DNA of 64,000 nt, taken from positions 1 through 64,000 of the forward strand of contig JAAFJX010000022.1 in assembly GCA_013299045.1 (NCBI GenBank), in the 5' to 3' direction. The notes under the pieces are model-generated. The model ran no database searches and was not told the DNA's origin. It saw nothing but the letters and a program-made list of their open reading frames with translations. The stretch is from Cytophagales bacterium (GTDB lineage: Bacteria; Bacteroidota; Bacteroidia; Cytophagales; Bernardetiaceae). Of this stretch, positions 254 through 33,142 are shown piece after piece. Numbering within the stretch: position 1 is the stretch's first letter; each line of letters begins with the position of its first letter. The position numbers and the translations under genes are program-made.

Positions 254-670
254 TTACCGTCTCAAGCTATCTGTTGGGGCACAAACAGCCGAAAAACTTG
301 TTACAAGTCTGCCAAAACGACGAATAGTTAGATAACATTCTCCTGGCATTTTGTATGCGGAATCACCAAGTTCTATCTTATAGTCTTTGCGTCTTTCGTG
401 TATATCTATCCAAGAAAATACATAAGTGGAATCTTTATCATCTATTATCTTAACACGAATATGGTCTCGAGAATTTTTGTAGGTGTCTATCTCTTCAATC
501 ACTACACCAGCAATCAATTTGTGGTAATAGGGAAGAAGTTGTTGGCATCTTCGTGGATTTTCGCCCGTATTGATGTATTCAAATTTGAGTAGATGGTAGC
601 CGATAATATAAAAAAGAGCAAATCCAGTTATATAGAAAAATGTCTTCTTAATTCCGTCAATATCTAACAT
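254..670 (-). CDS. Small membrane-anchored hypothetical protein
   Basis: This 138-residue protein starts at the ATG at 670 (MLDIDGIKK). A longer frame exists only from a TTG 66 nt upstream and adds residues unlike a leader. Residues about 10-28 (FFYITGFALFYIIGYHLL) form one membrane segment. The remainder is a polar domain rich in charged residues (KIIDDKDSTYVFSWIDIHER) and predicted to be mostly beta. I do not recognise the family. It is isolated between the partial Rpn-like gene and the 21-bp repeat array, so its context gives no function. The 158 bases between it and the partial gene hold nothing I can identify. Confidence 0.6.
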   Translation of the reverse strand: MLDIDGIKKTFFYITGFALFYIIGYHLLKFEYINTGENPRRCQQLLPYYHKLIAGVVIEEIDTYKNSRDHIRVKIIDDKDSTYVFSWIDIHERRKDYKIELGDSAYKMPGECYLTIRRFGRLVTSFSAVCAPTDSLRR

Positions 671-861
671 AGTTATGTGTTTTTCTGCTAAATTATTCCC
701 CAAAATTAATACTAAGTTTTTGGGGCAAAGATACAAAATAATCTAAAGTAATTTATTCTTAATACTTAAAGTCATTCTTTAATTACAAAAAATAATACAA
801 AAATTTATCACTTTATCTTTTATTTATAAAATATTAGCATTTTAATAAAATATTGTATATG

Positions 862-1239
862 ATTCACTTACTCATTTACTGATTCAATTATAAAAAATTT
901 TACTAGAATTAATCAATTCTATATTTACACTCTGCAATATACTACTTACACTAGGCAATATTATTTTTACACTTAACAATACACTAATTACACAAGTTAG
1001 TTTACTGTTTACATCAATTAATTTACTCATATCACAATAAAAAATTCTGTATCATTAAGTTAATTTTACAAATACATAAATTAATACACTAATTTAATCT
1101 ATCAATATAATTTTTACACAAGTTCATACAATTTATTCATAAAACAATACGCTATTTATACTAATTAAAGTTATATTTACACACATTAATATTGTATATC
1201 AACTAGTTTATTTACTAAATAATGACATCAGTATTACAT
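862..1239. repeat. Degenerate AT-rich tandem array with 21-bp period, about 18 units
   Basis: Cutting the sequence every 21 bases in the register that starts at 925 gives about 18 consecutive related units, from 862 to 1239. The best ones start at 925, 946, 967, 988, 1009, 1114 and 1177, and each begins TTACA. At unit positions 11-14 most units carry CAAT or TAAT (for example at 935, 956, 977, 1019, 1082, 1103, 1145 and 1187). The register is kept over the whole stretch without visible indels. The block is extremely AT-rich and lies between a hypothetical gene and the terminator of the macroglobulin gene. It may be an old minisatellite, a decayed heptad-coding sequence or a protein-binding array. 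Confidence 0.75.
884..1030 (-). CDS. Possible 48-residue heptad-repeat peptide within the 21-bp array
   Basis: On the minus strand the array contains an open frame with ATG at 1030 and TGA at 884. Because 21 bp equals seven codons, the product is built of heptads: MSKLIDV, NSKLTCV, ISVLLSV, KIILPSV, SSILQSV, NIELINS. The general form is (N/S)S(V/I/K)L(L/I)(S/D)V, a hydrophobic pattern compatible with an amphipathic helix or strand. Elsewhere in the array the same register is broken by stop codons, with another open stretch, MCVNITLISINSVLFYE, near 1142-1188. It could be a decayed repeat protein, a real micropeptide, or a by-product of the tandem repeat. No ribosome binding signal decides this. 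Confidence 0.25.
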   Translation of the reverse strand: MSKLIDVNSKLTCVISVLLSVKIILPSVSSILQSVNIELINSSKIFYN

Positions 1240-1308
1240 TTTTATAAAAAAAAATACTTTTTAAATATTAAACTTTACTACATATACATGAAACTGTATT
1301 GCTTTAAT

Positions 1309-1347
1309 AAAAAAAGAGATTAGTCTATTAAACCAATCTCTTTTTTT
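1309..1347 (-). terminator. Intrinsic terminator of the alpha-2-macroglobulin gene (bidirectional form)
   Basis: A 13-bp perfect stem (1309-1321 with 1335-1347) has a GAGATT core flanked by A-runs and T-runs, with a 13-nt loop. It lies about 50 nt past the stop codon of the minus-strand macroglobulin gene. The symmetric A and T tracts would also let it work on the plus strand. Confidence 0.8.
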
Positions 1348-1399
1348 ATTAAAATGATTTACCAATTTAGTAAAATACTTTATGACTTTAATAATAGAC

Positions 1400-4300
1400 T
1401 TACTTGACTACAATACGTATGCCTTCCGAATTAGATGAAAATTCAGGCGCGTACATACACTGTATAGAAGTTATACCATTAGAAAAGTTGCCTGCATGAG
1501 TTACTTTTAACTTATACTCAAAGACATATTTGCCTTTATATAAGTGTTCGAAGAAAAAGTTAGCTGATGCGTCGCGCATAGATTCATAATAACCCAATCC
1601 ATCTTGATATTTATAAGTTGAGATGGTTGTAGTAGGTTCTAAACATGACGCTCTCATGTCTTTAAGATGCACATAGTCCATTTCACGGTCTACAGTTAGT
1701 TCTACACGTACCGTAATAAAGTCTCCAACTTTCAGAGTTTCTTTTTCAATAGGCACAATTACTTTTCCAAGTGAAGATTCACGTTCTACAAAGAGCTTTT
1801 TACTGATTGATAAAGGCGTTTTACTGGTTGTAATCTTGTCTAGTTGTTCAAAATATTGCCAATATAAAGCTCCCCAGGCCACACCTTTACTTGGTTTATT
1901 GACTTCAACTTTTGCAGATGACTCATTAAACTCTGAGGCTTTAAAAGTTTTCTTAAAATATCCCGTACCTGCTTCTTTTTGGCTCATGTCCACTTTTTCA
2001 TTGCCCAAAGTAATGGTTAAATTAGGGTCTTCTTCCAATAAATCAAAAGAAAGTTTGGGTTTACTAGATTCTGTACTGCTTGCAGACTGCAAAAACAAAG
2101 CATATACAGCCTCTGTAGTGGCTTTAGTAGTCTGCCAGTTGTTTGTTTGTTTGTTTTTAAGCAACCAACTTTGCATTTCACTCAAAACTTTATCGTCTTT
2201 ACCCGTTAAAGTAAAGGCTTCAATCATTAAAGCCATTGTTTCAATAGGTGCTTCGTTCCAAAGATAAGATGAAACAGTCATTTCTTTCCAGTAACGTCCC
2301 ATTTCAGGGTTATATAATGAGCGTTGGCGCAATGCGTCAAAGACTTTATTGGACTCACTAGCCATGTTTCTTTTTGTAAAGACGATTGCAGCCATTGCCT
2401 GTTCGGATAGACTCATTGATAGCCAGTATTTACTCAACTGACTTGTAAAATAGCTGATTGCTTCGGTCTCTATTTTACTCAAATTAACTGCTTCAACGTT
2501 TGCACGAAGGTATAGATACTGAACCACAAAGTAGTTTATGTGTTTATCGTTCAAGTTTATCTTTTTATCTTTAGAGAGTCGAAGTAAATCTTTGTAATAG
2601 TCTGTTATATTGTTGTCCAAGTAGCGAACAGCCTCTTTGAACATCATCATTTCGCTACGCTGCAAGTCAATTACACCCAAGTTTATCAGGTGCGCAAATC
2701 CCTTTGCTAGGTGCATGGTTATGTTTGATGAAGCCGGCATTTTGTTGAACCAAGGAAAGCCTCCGTTTGCATATTGCATGGCCTTTAGTTTATTAAGCGA
2801 AGCGTTCTGCTCTTTTGCAATACGATTCAGGTCAAAAAGCACAGCCAAGTTTTTCTTTCTATCGGTTTCGTTTTTTGCTTGCAGTACCCATGGTGTTTCT
2901 TCCAGAAGGGCTAGTTTAAGTTCAGGGTTACTCTCCAACTTTGACACAAGCTCTTGCGCGTTTGTATTCTTCCACTGGTCAAAAATCTCTTTAATCTTTG
3001 GACTTGCATTCATGATGTGGGCAGCTAAAGCATTGGCGTAGTAGCGACTAAAGGTTTGCTCTGCACATTCATAAGGATACTCCATCAGATACGGAAGGCT
3101 CTGCACGGCATACCAAGCAGGGTTTGATGTAAACTCAAGCGTCAGGCTGTGATGCACAAGAGACTTTGATTGATTTTTAGCCAATTTATTAAAATAGTAT
3201 GACTCTTTACTGGCTCCACTAACCGCTATAGGCAAAGATTCTGTTACAAGCATACGGTTAGTAAGAACTTGTATAGGTTTTTCTTCGCCATCACTGAATT
3301 TATTAGAGACTGCAACGATTCTATAAGAGACAGCCTGAAATTTACTATCAGGAATACTCAACTCCCAAGACACTTGCGCGCTTTGACCAGAGGCTGCTCT
3401 AAACTCTTGTAAGCCTTTACTTATTAAGAGTTGGTCTGTAATTTTCTCATTGGTTAGTGTATTATAAAATTCTAAAGACACTTGGCCTAAGGCTTCTTCT
3501 GCACTTAAATTAGTAACCTTTGCAGTGAATACAATACGGTCATTCTCTCTAAAGAATCGGGGTGCATTGGGTACAATCATCAATTCTTTTTGTGTACGTA
3601 AGGCTTTTTCAAACAAAGCAAACTCTGCCTTTTTTGTATGTGCAAGACCAAGCAATTTCCACTTCGTGAGCGACTCTGGCATACGAAATTTAATTGTTAA
3701 ACTTCCGTCTGCATTGGTTTGAAGCTGCGGTACAAAGATTGCCGTTTCGTTAAAGTTGGTTCTAATAGGCACTTTATCGGTTTCAAATGGCTGTGCTAAA
3801 TTTTCATCAAGCATAGTAGCACTTGGAGATTCCATGATAGGCATTGCGGCAGAGTCTTCAGAGTATCCGAAGGCTTGTTCAGAGGTTTTTTCACGCATTT
3901 TTGCTTTTTTATTACTGCCTCCAGAGAATCCTTTAGATTTAGTAAAACCTATATTGTTCATTCTACGGTTTACAGATGTAGATGTTTTTTCTTCATCTTC
4001 CAAATAATATCCGTCATAATAATAAGTATCGCTTATAAAGCCTAATTCTTCGTAGGCAATACTCAGTTTAGGATAATAACTAGAAAGTTTAAGGCGCGAA
4101 GATGACGTAGTTATGCCAACAGAAAGTACTTCAAAGTTTGCATAATTGGCATTCATGGTAAAAGGAGCAAATTCAAAAGAATTAGGTGTTCCAATTTTAT
4201 CTAAAGATGCGTCGTATAAAGTAGCAACAAGCTCAGCCGCCACTTTTTCATTGTCTGCACCTTTTACAAGGATTCGCCACTCTTCTTCTTGTCCTGGTTG

Positions 4301-7300
4301 TAGTTTATCGCGGAAGGTTTCGAAGTTTACATCAAGGTCTTTGTTAGAGAAAGGTAGGTTTAGATAACCTTCTTCGATAAAAAATCGGTTTTCACGGAAT
4401 GCAAGTACGCTATAATATAAGCCTCCTCTATCTTCTTCGGTCATAGTATGGTTTATACTGACCATGTTATTGTTTAAATAGAGCCACTTAGATTCTAATT
4501 TTTGCTTGTCGCGAAACAAAGTAAAGAATATACGTTGTTTATCAAAGCCAGTACTGATTTTAATAGAGGCTTTATCATTTACACTATAAACTTCTTGGTT
4601 ATTTTGTGTCAATACAGGCTGTTTAAAAGGCTGTTTGCTGTCTAAAACAATTACATATTGGATTGATTGCACGTCTTGTCCGTAAGCATCTTTGGCTTTA
4701 AGGCTTACAGAATAAACACCTGCGCTTGGAAAGTCCAATGCAAATTCATTTTGATTAGGAACACTGTACTCATTTTGAAAAATAGTGCTTTCAGTAGGCC
4801 AAGTATAGAATTTATCTTCTTCTTTATAGACTTCATAAGGAAAAAGGCTTTTAAATTCTTGTTCTTTAAGAATGAAGAGGTCTGGAACTTCAAATTTACT
4901 AGGCAAAAGTAGCGTTTCGGGGGCTTTAAGTTTAGTTACAAGAACGGCAACACGGGCTTCTTGTGGCTGTCCGCTCAAATTTTTAGCAAAAATATTAACA
5001 GTGGTAGGTTCTTCAGCTTTTTTATGCTGAAGTTCTAAGTTCGTACTTAGCTCAAGCGCGGTTACACCAACGCGTATGTTTGTTTTACTGCTTTGTGTTT
5101 CGCCGTTAAGGTCTGTAACATTGATTTCAATGCGATAGTTAAAAGTTACACCTTGCGAAAGTGCGACTGAGGGGTCTGGAGTAGCATTGAAATTAATCAT
5201 AAAGTTGCCTTCAGCATCTGTAGTACCGGTTCCACTTTTTAAAATAGTTTCGGTAGATGTAGGAACTCTGCGCCAATAAGGCCACCACCCTGATACACTA
5301 AGCGTTCTAACGACAGAGTATTTGACTGCAGCGTTGTCAATAGACGCACCAGAGAATGCTTTTGCCTTTGCACTAACCTCAAGGCTTTCATTCAATTTGA
5401 AATTAGCCTTAACAGGGTCGAAATTGACTTCAAACAAAGGTCTTTTATACTCTTCAACGTTTATACTTGTTGTAGTATAAAAATCAGGACTGTCTTTAAA
5501 GCCTACACTAAGCGTCATTCTGCCTAAAAGGCCTCCTGTAGGGGTTGTAAACTCTGCTGCAAAAGACCCAAAGGCATTAGTAGTGCCTGATTTGGTTTCA
5601 ATAATTTGTCCGTTAGGGTCTGTAAAGGTTACAATAATCTCTTTGTTGGCAATAACTTCGGCATTTTTGCCGTCTGAAGCGAGTACAATGGTTTTAAAAT
5701 ACACTTTTTGATTTGGTCTATACAAAGTACGGTCTGTATAATTGTGTGCAATGATTGCACGCGACGCTTCTCTGTTTTTATCAAAGGAAAAGTTGTAGGA
5801 AGATAAAACAGTAGTGCTTTCCTCATTGTCTTTACTGCATTCAACACCGTAACTATACTCCCATGTATTTGCAGTTAGCTTTGAGGCATCTATTTTAAGC
5901 GTTACAAAGCCCGTAGTATCGGATACTGTTTCGTAAAGTGTAATAGTTTGTCGTTTACCAGAATTGTAATCATAGCGTGAAGCAATGTATTTGACCTTTG
6001 CACCGCTAATAGGTTCGCCAGTTTTGTTGTTAAGAACAAAAAGAGTGGTTTCTTTGTTCCATTCGTCTTTTAAATGTGCTATTGCAAAATTTGTAATTCT
6101 AAAACTAGTGTGTACGAGGCTTGATTCACTCCATTTTTTTTGATGAAAGTTAGAATCAGGCGAAGCTAACAAAATATAATTGCCTAAATTTAAGGGTTTC
6201 AGATAGTAATTTACTAAATGCAGTTGGCAGTCTGCGCTATCATTGGGCATCTGCAAAGAAAAAGCAAGAGTCTGTTCTTTTTGCAGAAGCCTGTTCATGA
6301 CATGAAACTTCTTTTCATTGTATTGATAGTTACAAAAGTCTTGATACTCTTTGTTTGTTAGTTTTATCACACGAAAGAATGCGCGTTGTACGTTCTTGTA
6401 AGTAATTGCGAAGAGACTGTTTGAATTCTGCGGAAGGCTTTGCTCAATTTTCAGATGCAAATGTGGTGCTTTAATATCGCTCTGTAATTTTTTAGTCATT
6501 TCAGCTCCATAAGAATTAGGGAACTTTTCTATAGCAGTACGGCAAAGTTCTAGGCTTTTGTTATAAAAGAAGCGTTTATCTGGGTTCTGTCCTCGATTAT
6601 AAGTGCTTGCTTCACTCGCATAAAACTCTGCCAAGGCATAAATGGCACGTGTTACCTGCTCATTATTGGGGTAGGTTTGTACCAAATAAGACAAGGCATT
6701 TATATAAAGAGACTTTTTATTTTCACTATTGATGTTTCTATAAGTATAGTTAATTCGCGCAAGCTCAGCGTCTAAAAGTGCGGTTAAATTATTGTCCTTT
6801 AAGTGTATATTGACCAATGTTTGAAATAAATTAAGCGAAAAGTATTCTGCCGAAAGGGTGTCTATGGGCTGAATAAGACAATTTGCAAAATCTTTGGTAT
6901 TTGCCAGAAAAGCAGGATTAGTCATTGCAAAAGACTTATCGTTCTTTGGGATATAAGCGGTCAATGTAGGAAGTACTTCTATGATGCTGTAGGCCATCAA
7001 ATGCAATAGTGAAGGCCGCATAGCTCGGTTTACGTAAGGACTTTGCACCCTTAAGTGATACCCAAGCAAAAAGTTGAAATTATCTAGCTTATGTTCTGCT
7101 AGCGCTTGAGGTTGTGCTATTCCCATACGAAAGTGCGCCAAAGCAGCTTTAGATAAGTCAAAAAACGTATAGGTCTGTATATCTTCCAGGTCAAAGTTTG
7201 TTGTTTGCGAACGCTGTGCTATTCGGTAACTGTTCTGATTCAAATAATCTACAAACAAGTTTCCTATATACACGTGCAATATACTTTTTGAGGGTAGCGA

Positions 7301-7597
7301 TGCAGAGTCTGCTTCACGCAAAAGCATTTTGATGTGGTCAATGATAGGGTCTTCGGACTTTCTGCTATGAATTGCATAGTGCTGTACTAAACTGTGAACA
7401 TACACATCATGGTTTTGTTGTTGTTTTGCAAGCTTGTAAACGAGCCTGTTAGTCGTATCAGCATTGAGCAGTAAACCTCTAGCAAGGAGTGAGTCGGTTT
7501 TATGAACAAGTATTTTGAGGTCTTGTGCCTGAAGCAAAGAAACAGAAAAGAGTAGGCAAATTGCACAAAGCAAAAGCCCATTTGCAATGGTTTTCAT
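1400..7597 (-). CDS. Secreted alpha-2-macroglobulin family protein with thioester motif
   Basis: This giant protein has 2065 residues and a Sec signal peptide (MKTIANGLLLCAICLLFSVS, likely cut after LQA). The absence of a lipobox cysteine suggests it is secreted or periplasmic rather than lipid-anchored. An N-terminal helical region is followed by a carboxypeptidase-regulatory-like segment (about 515-565, GEPISGAKVKYIASR), the MG2-type domain (about 620-700, YRPNQKVYFKTIV), further macroglobulin domains, and a low-complexity linker rich in G, S and K (near 1190-1260). The thioester signature PYECAEQ follows, with Cys1511 and Gln1514 placed as in the CxEQ consensus. A helical thioester domain and a C-terminal receptor-binding-like domain complete it. 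Such proteins are thought to trap host or competitor proteases by covalent capture. No penicillin-binding protein 1C gene lies next to it, unlike many bacterial copies. Confidence 0.93.
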   Translation of the reverse strand: MKTIANGLLLCAICLLFSVSLLQAQDLKILVHKTDSLLARGLLLNADTTNRLVYKLAKQQQNHDVYVHSLVQHYAIHSRKSEDPIIDHIKMLLREADSASLPSKSILHVYIGNLFVDYLNQNSYRIAQRSQTTNFDLEDIQTYTFFDLSKAALAHFRMGIAQPQALAEHKLDNFNFLLGYHLRVQSPYVNRAMRPSLLHLMAYSIIEVLPTLTAYIPKNDKSFAMTNPAFLANTKDFANCLIQPIDTLSAEYFSLNLFQTLVNIHLKDNNLTALLDAELARINYTYRNINSENKKSLYINALSYLVQTYPNNEQVTRAIYALAEFYASEASTYNRGQNPDKRFFYNKSLELCRTAIEKFPNSYGAEMTKKLQSDIKAPHLHLKIEQSLPQNSNSLFAITYKNVQRAFFRVIKLTNKEYQDFCNYQYNEKKFHVMNRLLQKEQTLAFSLQMPNDSADCQLHLVNYYLKPLNLGNYILLASPDSNFHQKKWSESSLVHTSFRITNFAIAHLKDEWNKETTLFVLNNKTGEPISGAKVKYIASRYDYNSGKRQTITLYETVSDTTGFVTLKIDASKLTANTWEYSYGVECSKDNEESTTVLSSYNFSFDKNREASRAIIAHNYTDRTLYRPNQKVYFKTIVLASDGKNAEVIANKEIIVTFTDPNGQIIETKSGTTNAFGSFAAEFTTPTGGLLGRMTLSVGFKDSPDFYTTTSINVEEYKRPLFEVNFDPVKANFKLNESLEVSAKAKAFSGASIDNAAVKYSVVRTLSVSGWWPYWRRVPTSTETILKSGTGTTDAEGNFMINFNATPDPSVALSQGVTFNYRIEINVTDLNGETQSSKTNIRVGVTALELSTNLELQHKKAEEPTTVNIFAKNLSGQPQEARVAVLVTKLKAPETLLLPSKFEVPDLFILKEQEFKSLFPYEVYKEEDKFYTWPTESTIFQNEYSVPNQNEFALDFPSAGVYSVSLKAKDAYGQDVQSIQYVIVLDSKQPFKQPVLTQNNQEVYSVNDKASIKISTGFDKQRIFFTLFRDKQKLESKWLYLNNNMVSINHTMTEEDRGGLYYSVLAFRENRFFIEEGYLNLPFSNKDLDVNFETFRDKLQPGQEEEWRILVKGADNEKVAAELVATLYDASLDKIGTPNSFEFAPFTMNANYANFEVLSVGITTSSSRLKLSSYYPKLSIAYEELGFISDTYYYDGYYLEDEEKTSTSVNRRMNNIGFTKSKGFSGGSNKKAKMREKTSEQAFGYSEDSAAMPIMESPSATMLDENLAQPFETDKVPIRTNFNETAIFVPQLQTNADGSLTIKFRMPESLTKWKLLGLAHTKKAEFALFEKALRTQKELMIVPNAPRFFRENDRIVFTAKVTNLSAEEALGQVSLEFYNTLTNEKITDQLLISKGLQEFRAASGQSAQVSWELSIPDSKFQAVSYRIVAVSNKFSDGEEKPIQVLTNRMLVTESLPIAVSGASKESYYFNKLAKNQSKSLVHHSLTLEFTSNPAWYAVQSLPYLMEYPYECAEQTFSRYYANALAAHIMNASPKIKEIFDQWKNTNAQELVSKLESNPELKLALLEETPWVLQAKNETDRKKNLAVLFDLNRIAKEQNASLNKLKAMQYANGGFPWFNKMPASSNITMHLAKGFAHLINLGVIDLQRSEMMMFKEAVRYLDNNITDYYKDLLRLSKDKKINLNDKHINYFVVQYLYLRANVEAVNLSKIETEAISYFTSQLSKYWLSMSLSEQAMAAIVFTKRNMASESNKVFDALRQRSLYNPEMGRYWKEMTVSSYLWNEAPIETMALMIEAFTLTGKDDKVLSEMQSWLLKNKQTNNWQTTKATTEAVYALFLQSASSTESSKPKLSFDLLEEDPNLTITLGNEKVDMSQKEAGTGYFKKTFKASEFNESSAKVEVNKPSKGVAWGALYWQYFEQLDKITTSKTPLSISKKLFVERESSLGKVIVPIEKETLKVGDFITVRVELTVDREMDYVHLKDMRASCLEPTTTISTYKYQDGLGYYESMRDASANFFFEHLYKGKYVFEYKLKVTHAGNFSNGITSIQCMYAPEFSSNSEGIRIVVK

Positions 7598-7698
7598 AGG
7601 CGATTAAGATTATAAACTCAAAAAAACAAATGAAGGTTTATAAAAAGACGTAAAGACAATTCAGATTCCACAAAGCAAAAGAAAAAAATTAATAGGAA

Positions 7699-9192
7699 TT
7701 ATTCTGCATAGGCGTACAACTTATCGGCAATTATTCTGTCGTTTGAAAGACGGGGCACTTTGTTTTGGCCTCCTAGTTTGCCGAGTTCTTTCATATAGCT
7801 GCGGAATGCGTCTTTCTGAAGACACTTGACTTGTAGAGGTTTCAGAATTGCTCCGCGAATAAGGTCGTCGTAATAGAGATTTAGGCTTCGCAAAGTTGTA
7901 TCTAGGTGCAGCGCGAAAGCATTGAGGTCGTGCGGTTTTTCATCAAAGGCTATGAGCCATTCATGATAGGGCAGCCCTTCTTGGGGGTTTACTTGCGGTG
8001 CTACTGTAAACTCCAAGACTTTGGTTTCGGGGTATTGCGCTAGGGCGGCCTTCAAAGTTTTTTCTACTTCTTCGGCAATGACGTGTTCGCCAAAGGCGGA
8101 GGTAAAGTGCTTGATTCGGCCTGAGAAGACAATTTTGTAAGGGTCTTTGGACACGAACTTGATGGTGTCGCCAATGGAATAGCCCCAAAGCCCTGCGTTA
8201 TTGTTGATAATCAGGGCATAATTGACCCCAATTTTTACGTCTGCAATGCTCAGGCGCGTGGGGTTTGGGTTAAAGTACTCGTCGGCAGGCACAAACTCAA
8301 AGAAAATGCCCGTGTCTAATAATAAGAGCAGATTGGGGTCATCTTGCTGGTTTTGGTAGGCAAAAAAGCCTTCGGAGGCGGGAAAGGTTTCAATAGAATC
8401 AATTTTTTTGCCAATAGACTCAAAAATTTTGTCGCGGTAGGGCGTAAAATTGACTCCACCATAAACGAAGAGATTGAAGTTAGGGAAAATATCTTTGATT
8501 TTTTTGCCAGTTTTGGCGTTCAGGCGGTCAAAATACATTTGCACCCACGGCGGAATGCCCGAAATGAGGGACATATCGGCGTGCAGGGTTTCCTCTACGA
8601 CGGCCTCTAGCTTGGTTTCCCAGTCTTCAATGCAGTTGGTCTTGAAGGAAGGCTTTTGATTTCGGCGCAGTACAGACGGCACATGATGATTGACTATGCC
8701 AGAGAGTCTGCCAATATGGTAGCCGTTTTTAGTTTCCAACTCTGGGCTTCCGGACAAAAATATGAGGTTTTTGTCAAAGAAAGCGGCACTATTTTTTTCG
8801 TTAGCGTAGCAGAGAAGCGCGTCGCGGGCAGAGTTAATGTGGTTGGGGATAGAGTCTTTGGTAAGTGGAATGTACTTTGTTCCGGAGGTAGTGCCCGATG
8901 TTTTTGCAAAATAAATGGGCCGTCCTGGCCAGAGGACGTTCTCTTTGCCTTCAAGAATTTGCTGCACATAAGGCGAAAGCTGCTCGTAGTCGCGTATGGG
9001 CACAGCCCGCTTGAAGTCCTCGTAGGTTTTGATGTCCTTAAAGTGGTGGTCTTGGCCAAACTGGGTGCTGGCTGCCTTGCTCACAAGGGTCTTGAAAGTG
9101 CGTTGTTGCGCCTCTGCTGGCTGTTTGAGCCATTTTTGTTGTTGCTTAACGACCCAACGCGCCAGCAGGAGCGCCAACTTAGATTTTATCAT
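7699..9192 (-). CDS. GH3-family acyl-adenylate-forming protein
   Basis: A 497-residue member of the GH3 auxin-responsive-promoter family, the ANL-type adenylating superfamily first known from plant amido synthetases. The ATP/AMP-binding motif SGTTSGTKYIPLT lies at about residue 97. The second motif region (FVYGGVNFTPYRD) and the acidic stretch IETFPASEGFFAYQ are also visible, and the protein ends in the C-terminal lid domain. Length is normal for the bacterial type. Only 12 nt separate it from ftcD upstream, so the two are probably co-transcribed. The substrate of bacterial GH3 proteins is generally unknown; conjugation of an acyl acid to an amino acid is the family-level expectation. Confidence 0.9.
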   Translation of the reverse strand: MIKSKLALLLARWVVKQQQKWLKQPAEAQQRTFKTLVSKAASTQFGQDHHFKDIKTYEDFKRAVPIRDYEQLSPYVQQILEGKENVLWPGRPIYFAKTSGTTSGTKYIPLTKDSIPNHINSARDALLCYANEKNSAAFFDKNLIFLSGSPELETKNGYHIGRLSGIVNHHVPSVLRRNQKPSFKTNCIEDWETKLEAVVEETLHADMSLISGIPPWVQMYFDRLNAKTGKKIKDIFPNFNLFVYGGVNFTPYRDKIFESIGKKIDSIETFPASEGFFAYQNQQDDPNLLLLLDTGIFFEFVPADEYFNPNPTRLSIADVKIGVNYALIINNNAGLWGYSIGDTIKFVSKDPYKIVFSGRIKHFTSAFGEHVIAEEVEKTLKAALAQYPETKVLEFTVAPQVNPQEGLPYHEWLIAFDEKPHDLNAFALHLDTTLRSLNLYYDDLIRGAILKPLQVKCLQKDAFRSYMKELGKLGGQNKVPRLSNDRIIADKLYAYAE

Positions 9193-19279: not shown

Positions 19280-19358
19280 AATAACAAAAAAAAAGATAAA
19301 GCCGCAAACCCGCTTGATGCCTAAAAATTGCTTTTGTCCTATTTTGCCTTAGCCATAG

Positions 19359-19402
19359 GATAGCCGTATGATAGCCGTATGATAGCCGTATGATAGCCGT
19401 AG
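19359..19402. repeat. 11-bp tandem repeat, four units
   Basis: Four head-to-tail copies of GATAGCCGTAT (19359, 19370, 19381, 19392; the last ends in G), followed by a decayed fifth (TTGGCCGTAG). The repeat lies inside the 510-bp inverted-repeat element in non-coding DNA. Confidence 0.85.
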
Positions 19403-28682: not shown

Positions 28683-31600
28683 ATGAGAGTATTTTCTTTT
28701 GTATTGCTGCTAATATGTATTGGCAGTATACCAGTTTTTGCGCAAGCCGATGACGCACCGCTCTGGCTACGTTATTCCGCTATTTCGCCCGACGGCAAAA
28801 CTATTGCTTTTTGTTATAAGGGTGATATCTATACAGTCCCTACACAAGGCGGAAAAGCTACAGCGCTTACGCTCCACGAAGCTCGCGATTTCAAGCCCGT
28901 TTGGTCGCCAGACAGCAAGAGCATTGCCTTTGCGTCTAATCGCTACGGTAACTATGACGTGTTTACTATTCCTGCTGAAGGCGGAAAGCCTACACGCCTT
29001 ACTTTTCATTCGGACAGTGACCATCCAAGCGCTTTTACCTCTGACGGTAAGCGTATTTTGTTTCAAAGCAGTCGTTTTGTTGATGCTAAAAACATGGCAC
29101 ATCCAAACGATGTTTATAGCCAAATTTTTAGCGTGGCTACAACGGGTGGACTTGAAAAGTTTGAAAACACCAACTCTTTAGAGCGCGTAACACCCGATAA
29201 AAGTGGTAATCGTTGGCTTTACTACGACCGTAAAGGCTATGAAGACGAGTGGCGCAAGCATCATACTTCATCTGTAACACGCGATTTGTGGCTTTTCTCA
29301 CGGAACGATAACAAATACAGTAAGATAACCAGCTTTGAGGGCGAAGACCGTGACCCTGTTTGGAGTCCAGACGAAAAAGATGTTTATTATTTGAGCGAAA
29401 AAGGTGGCACTTTCAATGTTTGGAAGTTTCCACTGGCACAACCAGATAAAACAGAGCAAGTTACAAAACACAGCAAGCATCCAGTACGCTTTTTGAGCAT
29501 GGCTACAGACGGAACAATTTGCTACAGTTTTAATGGTGAAATTTATACCAAAACAGCCAGCGGCGAATCTCAAAAGGTGCGTATAAGCATTGCTACTGAT
29601 GAGCGAAACAATGCTTACAGCAATGAAAACAATCCCATGTTGGCTTCCGAAATGGCTATTTCTGCTAATGGTAAAGAGGTTGCTTTTATTGTTCGTGGCG
29701 AAGTTTTTGTAGCTTCTGCCGAGTTCAGTACTACTAAACGGATTACGAATACACCAGAACAAGAGCGCTCTGTGAGCTTTAGCCCTGATGGCCGTAGCCT
29801 GGTTTATGCTGCCGAACGCAATGGAAGTTGGAATATCTACGAGTCCAAGATTCTGAACAAAACAGAGCCGTATATGTATGCTGCCACCCAAATTGAGGAA
29901 AAAGCACTACTTGAGGGGCCTGAAGAAACCTTCCAACCGAAGTATTCGCCTGACGGCAAAGAAGTAGCCTATCTGGAAGAACGCACTACCCTGAAAGTTT
30001 TGAATCTTGAGTCCAAGAAAACACGTGAGGTTATGGCAGGAACGCATAATTATTCTTATGCCGACGGCGACCAGTGGTACGACTGGGCACCAGACAGCAA
30101 ATGGTTTTTGGTTACCTTCTTAGACAAAAGTCGTTGGCGCTCAGAGGTAGGTTTGGTTGAAGCAGTTGGGGGCAAGAAGCCCATTAACCTCACTGTCAGC
30201 GGTTATAATGACGACTACGCACGCTTTATGATGAACGGCAAAATGATGATTTGGTTTACAGACCGCCGCGGTATGCGTTCGCATGGTAGCTGGGGTTCAC
30301 AAGGCGACGTTTATGGTATGTTCTTTACGCAAGCAGCTATGGATACCTTCTCCATGAATAAAGCCGAAGCAGATTTGGTAACTGAAACTCAAAAACTGAT
30401 AGACGAGCAGAAAGCCAAAGACGCAAAGCCGGACGATGCAAAAAAAGATGAAAAAAAGGACGACAAGAAAGAAGAAAAAAAAGAGGCTGAACCGCTCAAA
30501 ATTGAAATGGACGGCCTACAAGACCGCATTAAGCGCCTCACAATACATTCTTCAAACCTTGGCGATGCCATATTGACTCCTTCCGGCGACAAGCTCTACT
30601 ATCTTAGCGCATTTGAAAAAGGCTACGACCTTTGGGTACATGAGTTTAAAGAGCAGCGCACCAAAATTGTGGCAAAGCTAGAAGCCTACGGCGGCCAACT
30701 CGCCATGGACAAAGAGGGCAAATACCTTTTTATGCTAAGCGGTGGCAATATCACACGCATAGATGTTGCCTCTGGCGAGCAGAAGCCTGTGATGTATAAT
30801 GCTCAGATGCAGCTCAAGACTGAAGAGGAGCGCGCTTACTTCTTTGAGCACATCTGGCGACAAGTAGATAAAAAATTCTATGTCAAAGACTTACACGGCG
30901 TTGATTGGCCTTTTATGAAAAAAGAGTATGCACGCTTTCTGCCACACATCAATAACTATCATGACTTTTCCGAAATGACAAGTGAGCTACTTGGCGAATT
31001 AAATGCCTCGCATACTGGTTGTTTCTACTTTGGTGGTGGTTCGCCTAATGGCGACCAGACAGCCTCTTTGGGCGCGTTTTACGACCATAGTTTCAATGGA
31101 AATGGTATCAGAATTGAAGAAATTATGGAAAAAGGCCCTCTACATAAAGCAGGTTTGGGGGTGAGTGCTGGCTGTATTATTGAAAAAATTGACGGTCAGG
31201 ACATCAACGCGAATACCAACTTCTATCAGTTTTTGAACCAAAAAGCAGGCAAATATGTACTTTTGAGCATTCTTGACCCTAAAACGAGCAGCCGCAAGGA
31301 CGTTCGCGTAAAGGCTATTTACAACTGGCAAGAAGGCGGCTTGCTTTACCAACGCTGGCTCAAAAAAATGCGCGAAATGGTGGACAAGCGCTCTAACGGA
31401 CGCTTGGCTTACGTGCACGTGGAAGGTATGGACGAGAGCAGCTTCCGTCATGTGTATTCAGAAGTTTTGGGGCGCTATGCGGATAAAGAAGGACTTATTG
31501 TGGATACACGCTTTAATGGTGGTGGATGGTTACACGACGACCTCGCCACTTTTTTGAGCGGAAAGCGTTATGCAGAACTCGTACCACGTGGTCAAAAAAT

Positions 31601-32976: not shown

Positions 32977-33142
32977 CAATGTTTAGGGGCAGTGAACCAA
33001 ATCCAAATATTTTTTTTGATGAGTGGAACTCAAACCATTATAAGTCATTATCCCAAAACTAAAGAATAAAAAAAGAATAAAAAAGAATAAAAAAAAGTAA
33101 CTTTTTTTATAAAATTGTACTAAATTGCAGCCGCTAAGCAGC

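Follow-up and report, generated by a model that had tools for sequence, protein, structure and literature searches.

What does an intergenic array of drifted 21-bp units, held in one register, represent? The array in question (862-1239, 20% GC) belongs to a 64,000-nucleotide stretch of a Cytophagales genome (contig JAAFJX010000022.1, assembly GCA_013299045.1), hereafter the window, and is placed between the stop of an alpha-2-macroglobulin-like (A2M-like) gene at 1400-7597 and a small ORF at 254-664. An earlier note had described it as an in-register 21-bp array and had proposed a nucleoid-protein or partition-type array, a phased-bend element, or a decayed coding repeat. Autocorrelation bears out the periodicity. 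Identity at lags 21, 42, and 63 is 0.51, 0.56, and 0.54, with z of 6.8, 8.5, and 7.7 against 1000 dinucleotide shuffles, and no shuffle exceeds 0.42 at lag 21. The TTACA start and the (C/T)AAT at positions 11-14, also described earlier, are both present in the unit profile. TRF reports only 925-993 and 988-1027, the best-kept part, because it needs similar copies.

Extent and register of the domain

The extent given in the earlier note proved far too small. Lag 21 is equally strong in the segment 1240-1400 (z 6.0), and register-locked signal runs on to about 7709, a continuation through the A2M-like gene that the note had missed. The array is the visible tip of a larger register-locked stretch, from 768 to about 7709. 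The features of this region are as follows.

768..7709, + strand: domain of 6942 bp (about 331 units) locked in one 21-bp register, with the motif reading forward on the + strand; maximal LLR segment
768..1399, + strand: core array in AT-rich intergenic DNA, with about 30 drifted units; the arrays have the consensus TTACACAAATCAATATACTAT; unit position 1 at 925
925..1029, + strand: best-preserved units (TTACAC...AAT..ACT), containing the two TRF rows
1303..1353, - strand: AT-rich inverted repeat with T/A runs at its end, from a self-match on the opposite strand and sequence reading
1400..7597, - strand: A2M-like gene, 2065 aa, 6.2 kb, with MG2, A2M, and bMG10 domains (Pfam); pattern on synonymous sites
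2621..3125, + strand: local excursion in which the signal disappears and then reappears in register -1 (mod 7), with register 0 again after 3125
6153..6650, + strand: local excursion; register -1, then back at 0
6909..7244, + strand: weaker excursion; register +6/-1 (same mod 7), then back at 0
254..664, - strand: flanking small ORF, pattern-free and outside the domain; shuffle z -0.6; no Pfam or NCBIfam family
7699..9192, - strand: flanking GH3-family gene (Pfam GH3), outside the domain; shuffle z 2.7; the LLR segment ends at 7709

A fit over the 6942 bp puts the period at 21.001 bp (half-height 20.993-21.009), and sliding windows show the array's own register held across nearly the whole A2M-like gene. 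When base is tested against position mod 21 by a G-statistic that controls for codon position, z reaches 49.6 in the gene and 23.5 in the intergenic DNA; none of the other window genes tested goes above 2.2. The gene also shows Fourier peaks at 7.0 and 10.5 bp along its length, with T phases that match those of the array, and its third codon positions carry the strongest bias. The one-base register shifts listed above lie inside an open frame, so indels are impossible as their cause. Within the domain, the inverted repeat at 1303..1353 is the probable terminator of the A2M-like gene; the terminator scan gave it no score. Elsewhere in the window there are three short direct or tandem repeats, an 11-bp unit in 4.7 near-identical copies at 19350-19401 (TAGCCGTATGA), GATGAAAAAAAA repeated 4.2 times at 30435-30484, and AAAGAATAAAA repeated 3.3 times at 33061-33095.

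The pattern is written in DNA, not protein

To separate DNA from protein as the carrier of the period, synonymous codons were shuffled within each gene, which preserves the protein and its codon usage. The A2M-like gene gives a shuffle z of 48 at seven codons and nil at five, six, eight, and nine. The other genes inside domains of this kind (there are four in the genome, as described below) behave similarly, with z of 36 for recG and 24, 20, 17, 14, and so on for the rest, other periods again being nil; all control genes outside the domains stay below 3. Summed over the domains, the chi2 z is 165 at codon position 3, compared with 25 at position 1 and 13 at position 2, and GC3 is 0.27-0.33 inside versus 0.45-0.49 outside. 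The synonymous shuffles, together with the codons shared with the congener (below), rule out a protein heptad or TPR repeat as the origin. A decayed coding repeat was likewise rejected, since no ORF of at least 50 aa crosses the array and the genes whose synonymous sites carry the pattern are unrelated and differ in frame. TPR/CHAT and SMC genes are the false positives of the method, with 21-bp signals of protein origin (L104, L020, L107, L235, L242), and the remaining period-21 hits were TPR, SMC, or coiled-coil genes. The genome encodes many paralogous TPR proteins with a CHAT-like C-terminal part, some of them adjacent (L104 356-8853; L235 12337-18566; L242 7447-10336; L090 2064-5924).

The arrays share the consensus TTACACAAATCAATATACTAT, with A or T at position 3, C or T at 6, and any base at 10. 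At fourfold sites the preferences differ in kind from position to position and are largely independent of the neighbouring base. In the first half of the unit they are A/T at 1 (G 0.01), T 0.74 at 2, A+C 0.92 at 4, A 0.66 at 5, and A+G 0.86 at 7; in the second half, A+T 0.96 at 14, T 0.80 against A 0.02 at 16, A 0.58 at 17, and G 0.48 at 20. Such preferences resemble the groove contacts of a protein rather than one type of mutation. Coding sites and arrays differ in motif at positions 13, 14, and 20, which makes simple base pairing with a fixed guide unlikely. A hairpin lattice built on self-complementarity of the motif was rejected, the match of the motif to its own reverse complement being at most 0.32.

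Four domains in one genome, and the relatives

A 63-bp profile of three units (model R1), searched across the 4.06-Mb genome, places array clusters at exactly four loci: the window, C5 near 25.0 kb, C58 near 62.7 kb (minus), and C48 near 99.4 kb (minus). The three further domains contain the following genes.

C5, 5066 bp, both strands: part of a sucD-like gene (our own ORF reading), O-methyltransferase, lpxK, M16 peptidase, LolA-like
C58, 4103 bp, both strands: WG-repeat gene (our own ORF reading), pdxJ, glycosyltransferase
C48, 6563 bp, both strands: HEAT/peptidyl-prolyl isomerase gene, recG, alaDH

Each domain comprises 195-331 units built around an intergenic AT-rich array, and a single register with a period of 21.00 +/- 0.01 holds across its genes, whichever strand they are on. 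When 315-bp windows were scored with a profile trained on the rest of their domain, register 0 of 21 was picked in 69 of 72; the three exceptions fall in the A2M-like gene. In the flanking 2 kb on the main side, z in register is 16-27, against about 0 for true minisatellites. Signal amplitude is constant along a domain and then stops, with no gradual decay, and two domains (C16 and C58) have sharp left edges. Twelve of the 12 domain genes checked have their wobble base at unit positions 1 or 2 mod 3 and never at 3 mod 3, an outcome with a chance of 0.8% were frames free to vary; at C58 and C48 the sharp edges adjoin genes in the excluded frame. The pattern thus looks able to spread only where coding permits. 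The C5 array contains 42- and 84-bp super-repeats, marking recent unit duplication; the coding parts of domains are not duplicated. Sampling of about 980 kb, one quarter of the genome, found no window above the permuted-motif maximum among 17,472 outside the domains, compared with 103 inside; domains that lack an array may lie elsewhere in the genome. No usable ori/ter or strand signal emerged from GC skew, an Rfam search gave nothing convincing, and no match to the array was found in plasmid and phage collections.

The earlier note had regarded absence of the array from this locus in close relatives as a refutation. It is indeed absent there, which counts against conservation only, and the unit recurs at the three other loci of the same genome. 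The recG gene of the congener is 72% identical and has no signal. Across the 202 fourfold sites at which the two recG genes encode the same amino acid, testing base against unit position yields a chi2 (df 18) of 137 here versus 13.7 in the congener, and position 16 is T in 25 of 27 cases here versus 5 of 27. Codon-position-2 changes in recG that alter amino acids also go toward the motif (gain 0.36; best of 20 wrong registers 0.19). For the isomerase gene the gain is 0.25, against 0.23 for the best wrong register, and the O-methyltransferase shows no such movement. In the congener, the O-methyltransferase gene, which lies in the C5 domain here, adjoins the formiminotransferase gene, whose counterpart here borders the C16 domain (L194, 3015-5424), an adjacency that suggests a past rearrangement joining two domain loci.

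The pattern is also absent from recG in 14 other relatives. A2M orthologues of other families have no array or domain, nor does the sampled DNA of five relatives including the congener (G001, G005, G013, G037, G018), and only chance matches came from the order (118 genomes) and the class (395 genomes). The few period-21 windows in relatives (L200 and L220, for example) are taken for repeat proteins, some having been checked. Among 84,980 species genomes scanned for the pattern, one true array came up, in the Flavobacteriaceae MAG CANCJZ01, where 24 of the 47 TRF arrays in 280 kb are intergenic minisatellites of 21 bp with many unrelated units. In none of them does the register carry over into the flanking genes. 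The loci inspected there (L135, L168-L187) hold about one intergenic minisatellite of exactly 21 bp every 10-20 kb, with units that differ from array to array; several units are common to multiple loci, and period-14 arrays and one period-31 array also occur. We regard the arrays of this MAG as a separate, ordinary phenomenon; the coincidence of period is intriguing, and the likeness of motif was chosen by the query. A literature search on 21-bp periodicity or arrays found nothing relevant. Existence of the pattern, its exact register, its DNA-level nature, its four-fold recurrence in one genome, and its restriction to this lineage are what the analysis shows.

A putative protein lattice, its rivals, and known systems

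Among the readings in the earlier note, protein sites repeated on the same DNA face, as in a nucleoid-protein or partition-type array, fit best, the protein itself being putative. We propose that a sequence-specific DNA-binding protein may assemble cooperatively as a regular lattice, with one 21-bp repeat per two helical turns and perhaps three sub-contacts of about 7 bp in each repeat. The AT-rich intergenic arrays would be high-affinity sites that nucleate the lattice, from which it would grow in register over adjacent genes, and selection for total binding would push silent sites, and some amino acids, toward the motif. By our own estimate, scaled selection of about 4 per site suffices for the 0.80 versus 0.02 seen at position 16, a strength comparable with codon bias. 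A protein polymerising in a fixed 21-bp step, combined with selection on total affinity, is to us the most economical account, and we judge an array-nucleated lattice kept by synonymous-site selection about evenly poised between right and wrong. Several observations sit uneasily with it. The exact return to register 0 after the faults in the A2M-like gene is odd for growth by neighbour contacts alone, and the disagreement of arrays and coding sites at positions 13, 14, and 20 is awkward as well. The domains cover housekeeping genes, which a silencing filament would harm. The congener, also lacking ParB, shows no such array.

The pattern could instead be imprinted by mutation, binding or processing in 21-bp steps altering damage or repair at each base until a mutational equilibrium is reached with no selection for the pattern. 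The near saturation of synonymous sites (recG position 16), the fall of GC3 inside domains, and the shift of codon positions 1 and 2 as well agree with this. However, position-specific asymmetries of about 40-fold would be required, transversions included (T versus A at 16; A+C versus G+T at 4), and avoidance of one reading-frame register would go unexplained; we consider such an imprint unlikely. Guided rewriting or drive, by which neighbouring DNA is converted in register, wherever coding tolerates it, through an array copy made of RNA or ssDNA or through a nuclease or repair process, could account for a single motif at four loci, for recent unit duplication in the arrays (the super-repeats of C5), and for the register going back to zero after faults. 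It appears improbable, since the coding consensus is unlike the array's at 13, 14, and 20, contrary to copying, no such enzyme or donor was found, and the genes are without tandem duplications.

We give very little credence to phased processing, in which cleavage of the domain's transcripts or DNA would proceed from a fixed start in 21-nt steps, as in plant phased small RNAs, with the base preferences reflecting cutting or loading. The exact 21-nt register and the sharp left edges in C16 and C58 recall such a process, but the register runs across intergenic DNA and a terminator as well as genes of either strand, and two arrays sit in the middle of their domain. Intrinsically bent DNA, with phased A-tracts serving curvature or nucleoid packing, is hardly credible. 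The region is AT-rich, its period equals two turns, and parts of the A2M-like gene have a 10.5-bp component. In the array, however, that harmonic is the weakest of all (0.8, versus 7.8 at 21 bp, 6.0 at 7 bp, and 16.6 at 4.2 bp), which leaves the phased-bend element of the earlier note unsupported; specific bases are preferred, C, G, and strand-specific T among them, and curvature does not need one register over 7 kb. We think just as poorly of the chances of an ordinary minisatellite, a heptad repeat at the protein level, or an assembly artefact. A Flavobacteriaceae MAG rich in intergenic 21-bp minisatellites and TPR and SMC genes with 21-bp signals of protein origin lend the first two some footing. 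Those minisatellites stay out of genes, though, synonymous shuffles and shared codons exclude a protein-level repeat, and four contigs with coherent, intact ORFs speak against an artefact. A bend element, a decayed coding repeat, and an ordinary minisatellite are thus contradicted.

For the putative protein lattice, the likely use would be nucleoid anchoring or chromosome segregation, as a centromere-like track. Such a use was considered because the family is without ParB and canonical parS. No match within two mismatches to the 16-bp parS palindrome was found in this genome, and the family genomes gave only poor matches; a loss of parS specific to the source genome was dismissed, the whole family being parS-poor. 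ParB (TIGR00180; cut-off E 0.001 in the source genome) is found above cut-off in none of ten family genomes (G000-G009), which include the source genome and the congener, and three other families of the order have it at E below 1e-51. From these searches, ParABS looks lost at the family level, which deserves separate study. Since the congener is ParB-less and yet array-less in its sampled part, the domains are not a general replacement of ParABS in the family. We infer the protein, its cooperativity, the selection, and the role in segregation. That a bacterium of a ParB-less family evolved its own lattice, four tracks of 4-7 kb with a 21-bp code over ordinary genes and a filament in one register, as an alternative centromere or scaffold, is a tentative proposal, and we lean slightly against it.

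The pattern implies one of two things, a repeating nucleoprotein structure that extends over kilobases or a new process of sequence imprinting. The code sets most silent sites and shifts some amino acids over several unrelated genes. Synonymous sites of housekeeping genes can bear a structural constraint in a 21-bp register, and analyses of codon usage and molecular clocks would be misled by it. The pattern may also indicate a strategy of chromosome segregation in bacteria without ParABS, and the arrays are ready bait for finding the factor.

Other long-range patterns offer partial likenesses. Periodic An/Tn Clusters are noncoding A/T clusters at about 10 bp. In C. elegans they form a long-range helical-phased pattern over 6-10% of the genome (PMC7725773); here, in contrast, a full 21-bp base-specific motif is present and synonymous codons are rewritten. 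Prokaryotic A-tract periodicity of 10-11 bp is presented as a DNA-level, helical-pitch-related, weak genome-wide signal of curvature (PMC3431218, PMC4132750), unlike the specific, register-locked motif in few domains; the dominant 10-11 bp A/T-run component of a curvature element is not seen here. The tandem repeats of Borgs are described as many recent direct repeats across one genome (PMC9879509). They are true tandem duplications, whereas here the pattern runs across unrelated coding sequence. The minisatellites of MAG CANCJZ01 share the exact 21-bp unit, and one family resembles the motif (TTCCACACATTAATTTGCTAT), but they comprise many different units, are intergenic, and have no in-register signal in genes. 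As with H-NS-like silencing filaments, the target is AT-rich (by the GC3 values above); unlike their foreign-gene targets, the domains hold recG, lpxK, pdxJ, and alaDH.

Likenesses are also found in segregation and replication. Iteron origins and partition centromeres (R6K/RK2-type iterons; ParR-parC, TubR-type) consist of AT-rich direct repeats of about 20-22 bp that present the same helical face for cooperative binding; known arrays lie in noncoding DNA and number from a few sites to some tens. The directly repeated sites and fixed helical spacing are found here too, but the domains have 195-331 units each and run through protein genes rather than being confined to a noncoding origin or centromere. 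In ParABS, parS is a single 16-bp palindrome from which ParB spreads as a clamp, with no sequence register. The domains resemble parS regions in their few chromosomal loci and in a putative protein occupancy on the kilobase scale to both sides of a nucleation site; they differ in that canonical parS and ParB were not found here. To our knowledge, no system of this kind has been described, and no bacterial system predicts such a code. If the reading is true, it would be the first known motif code to rewrite the silent sites of housekeeping genes over kilobases.
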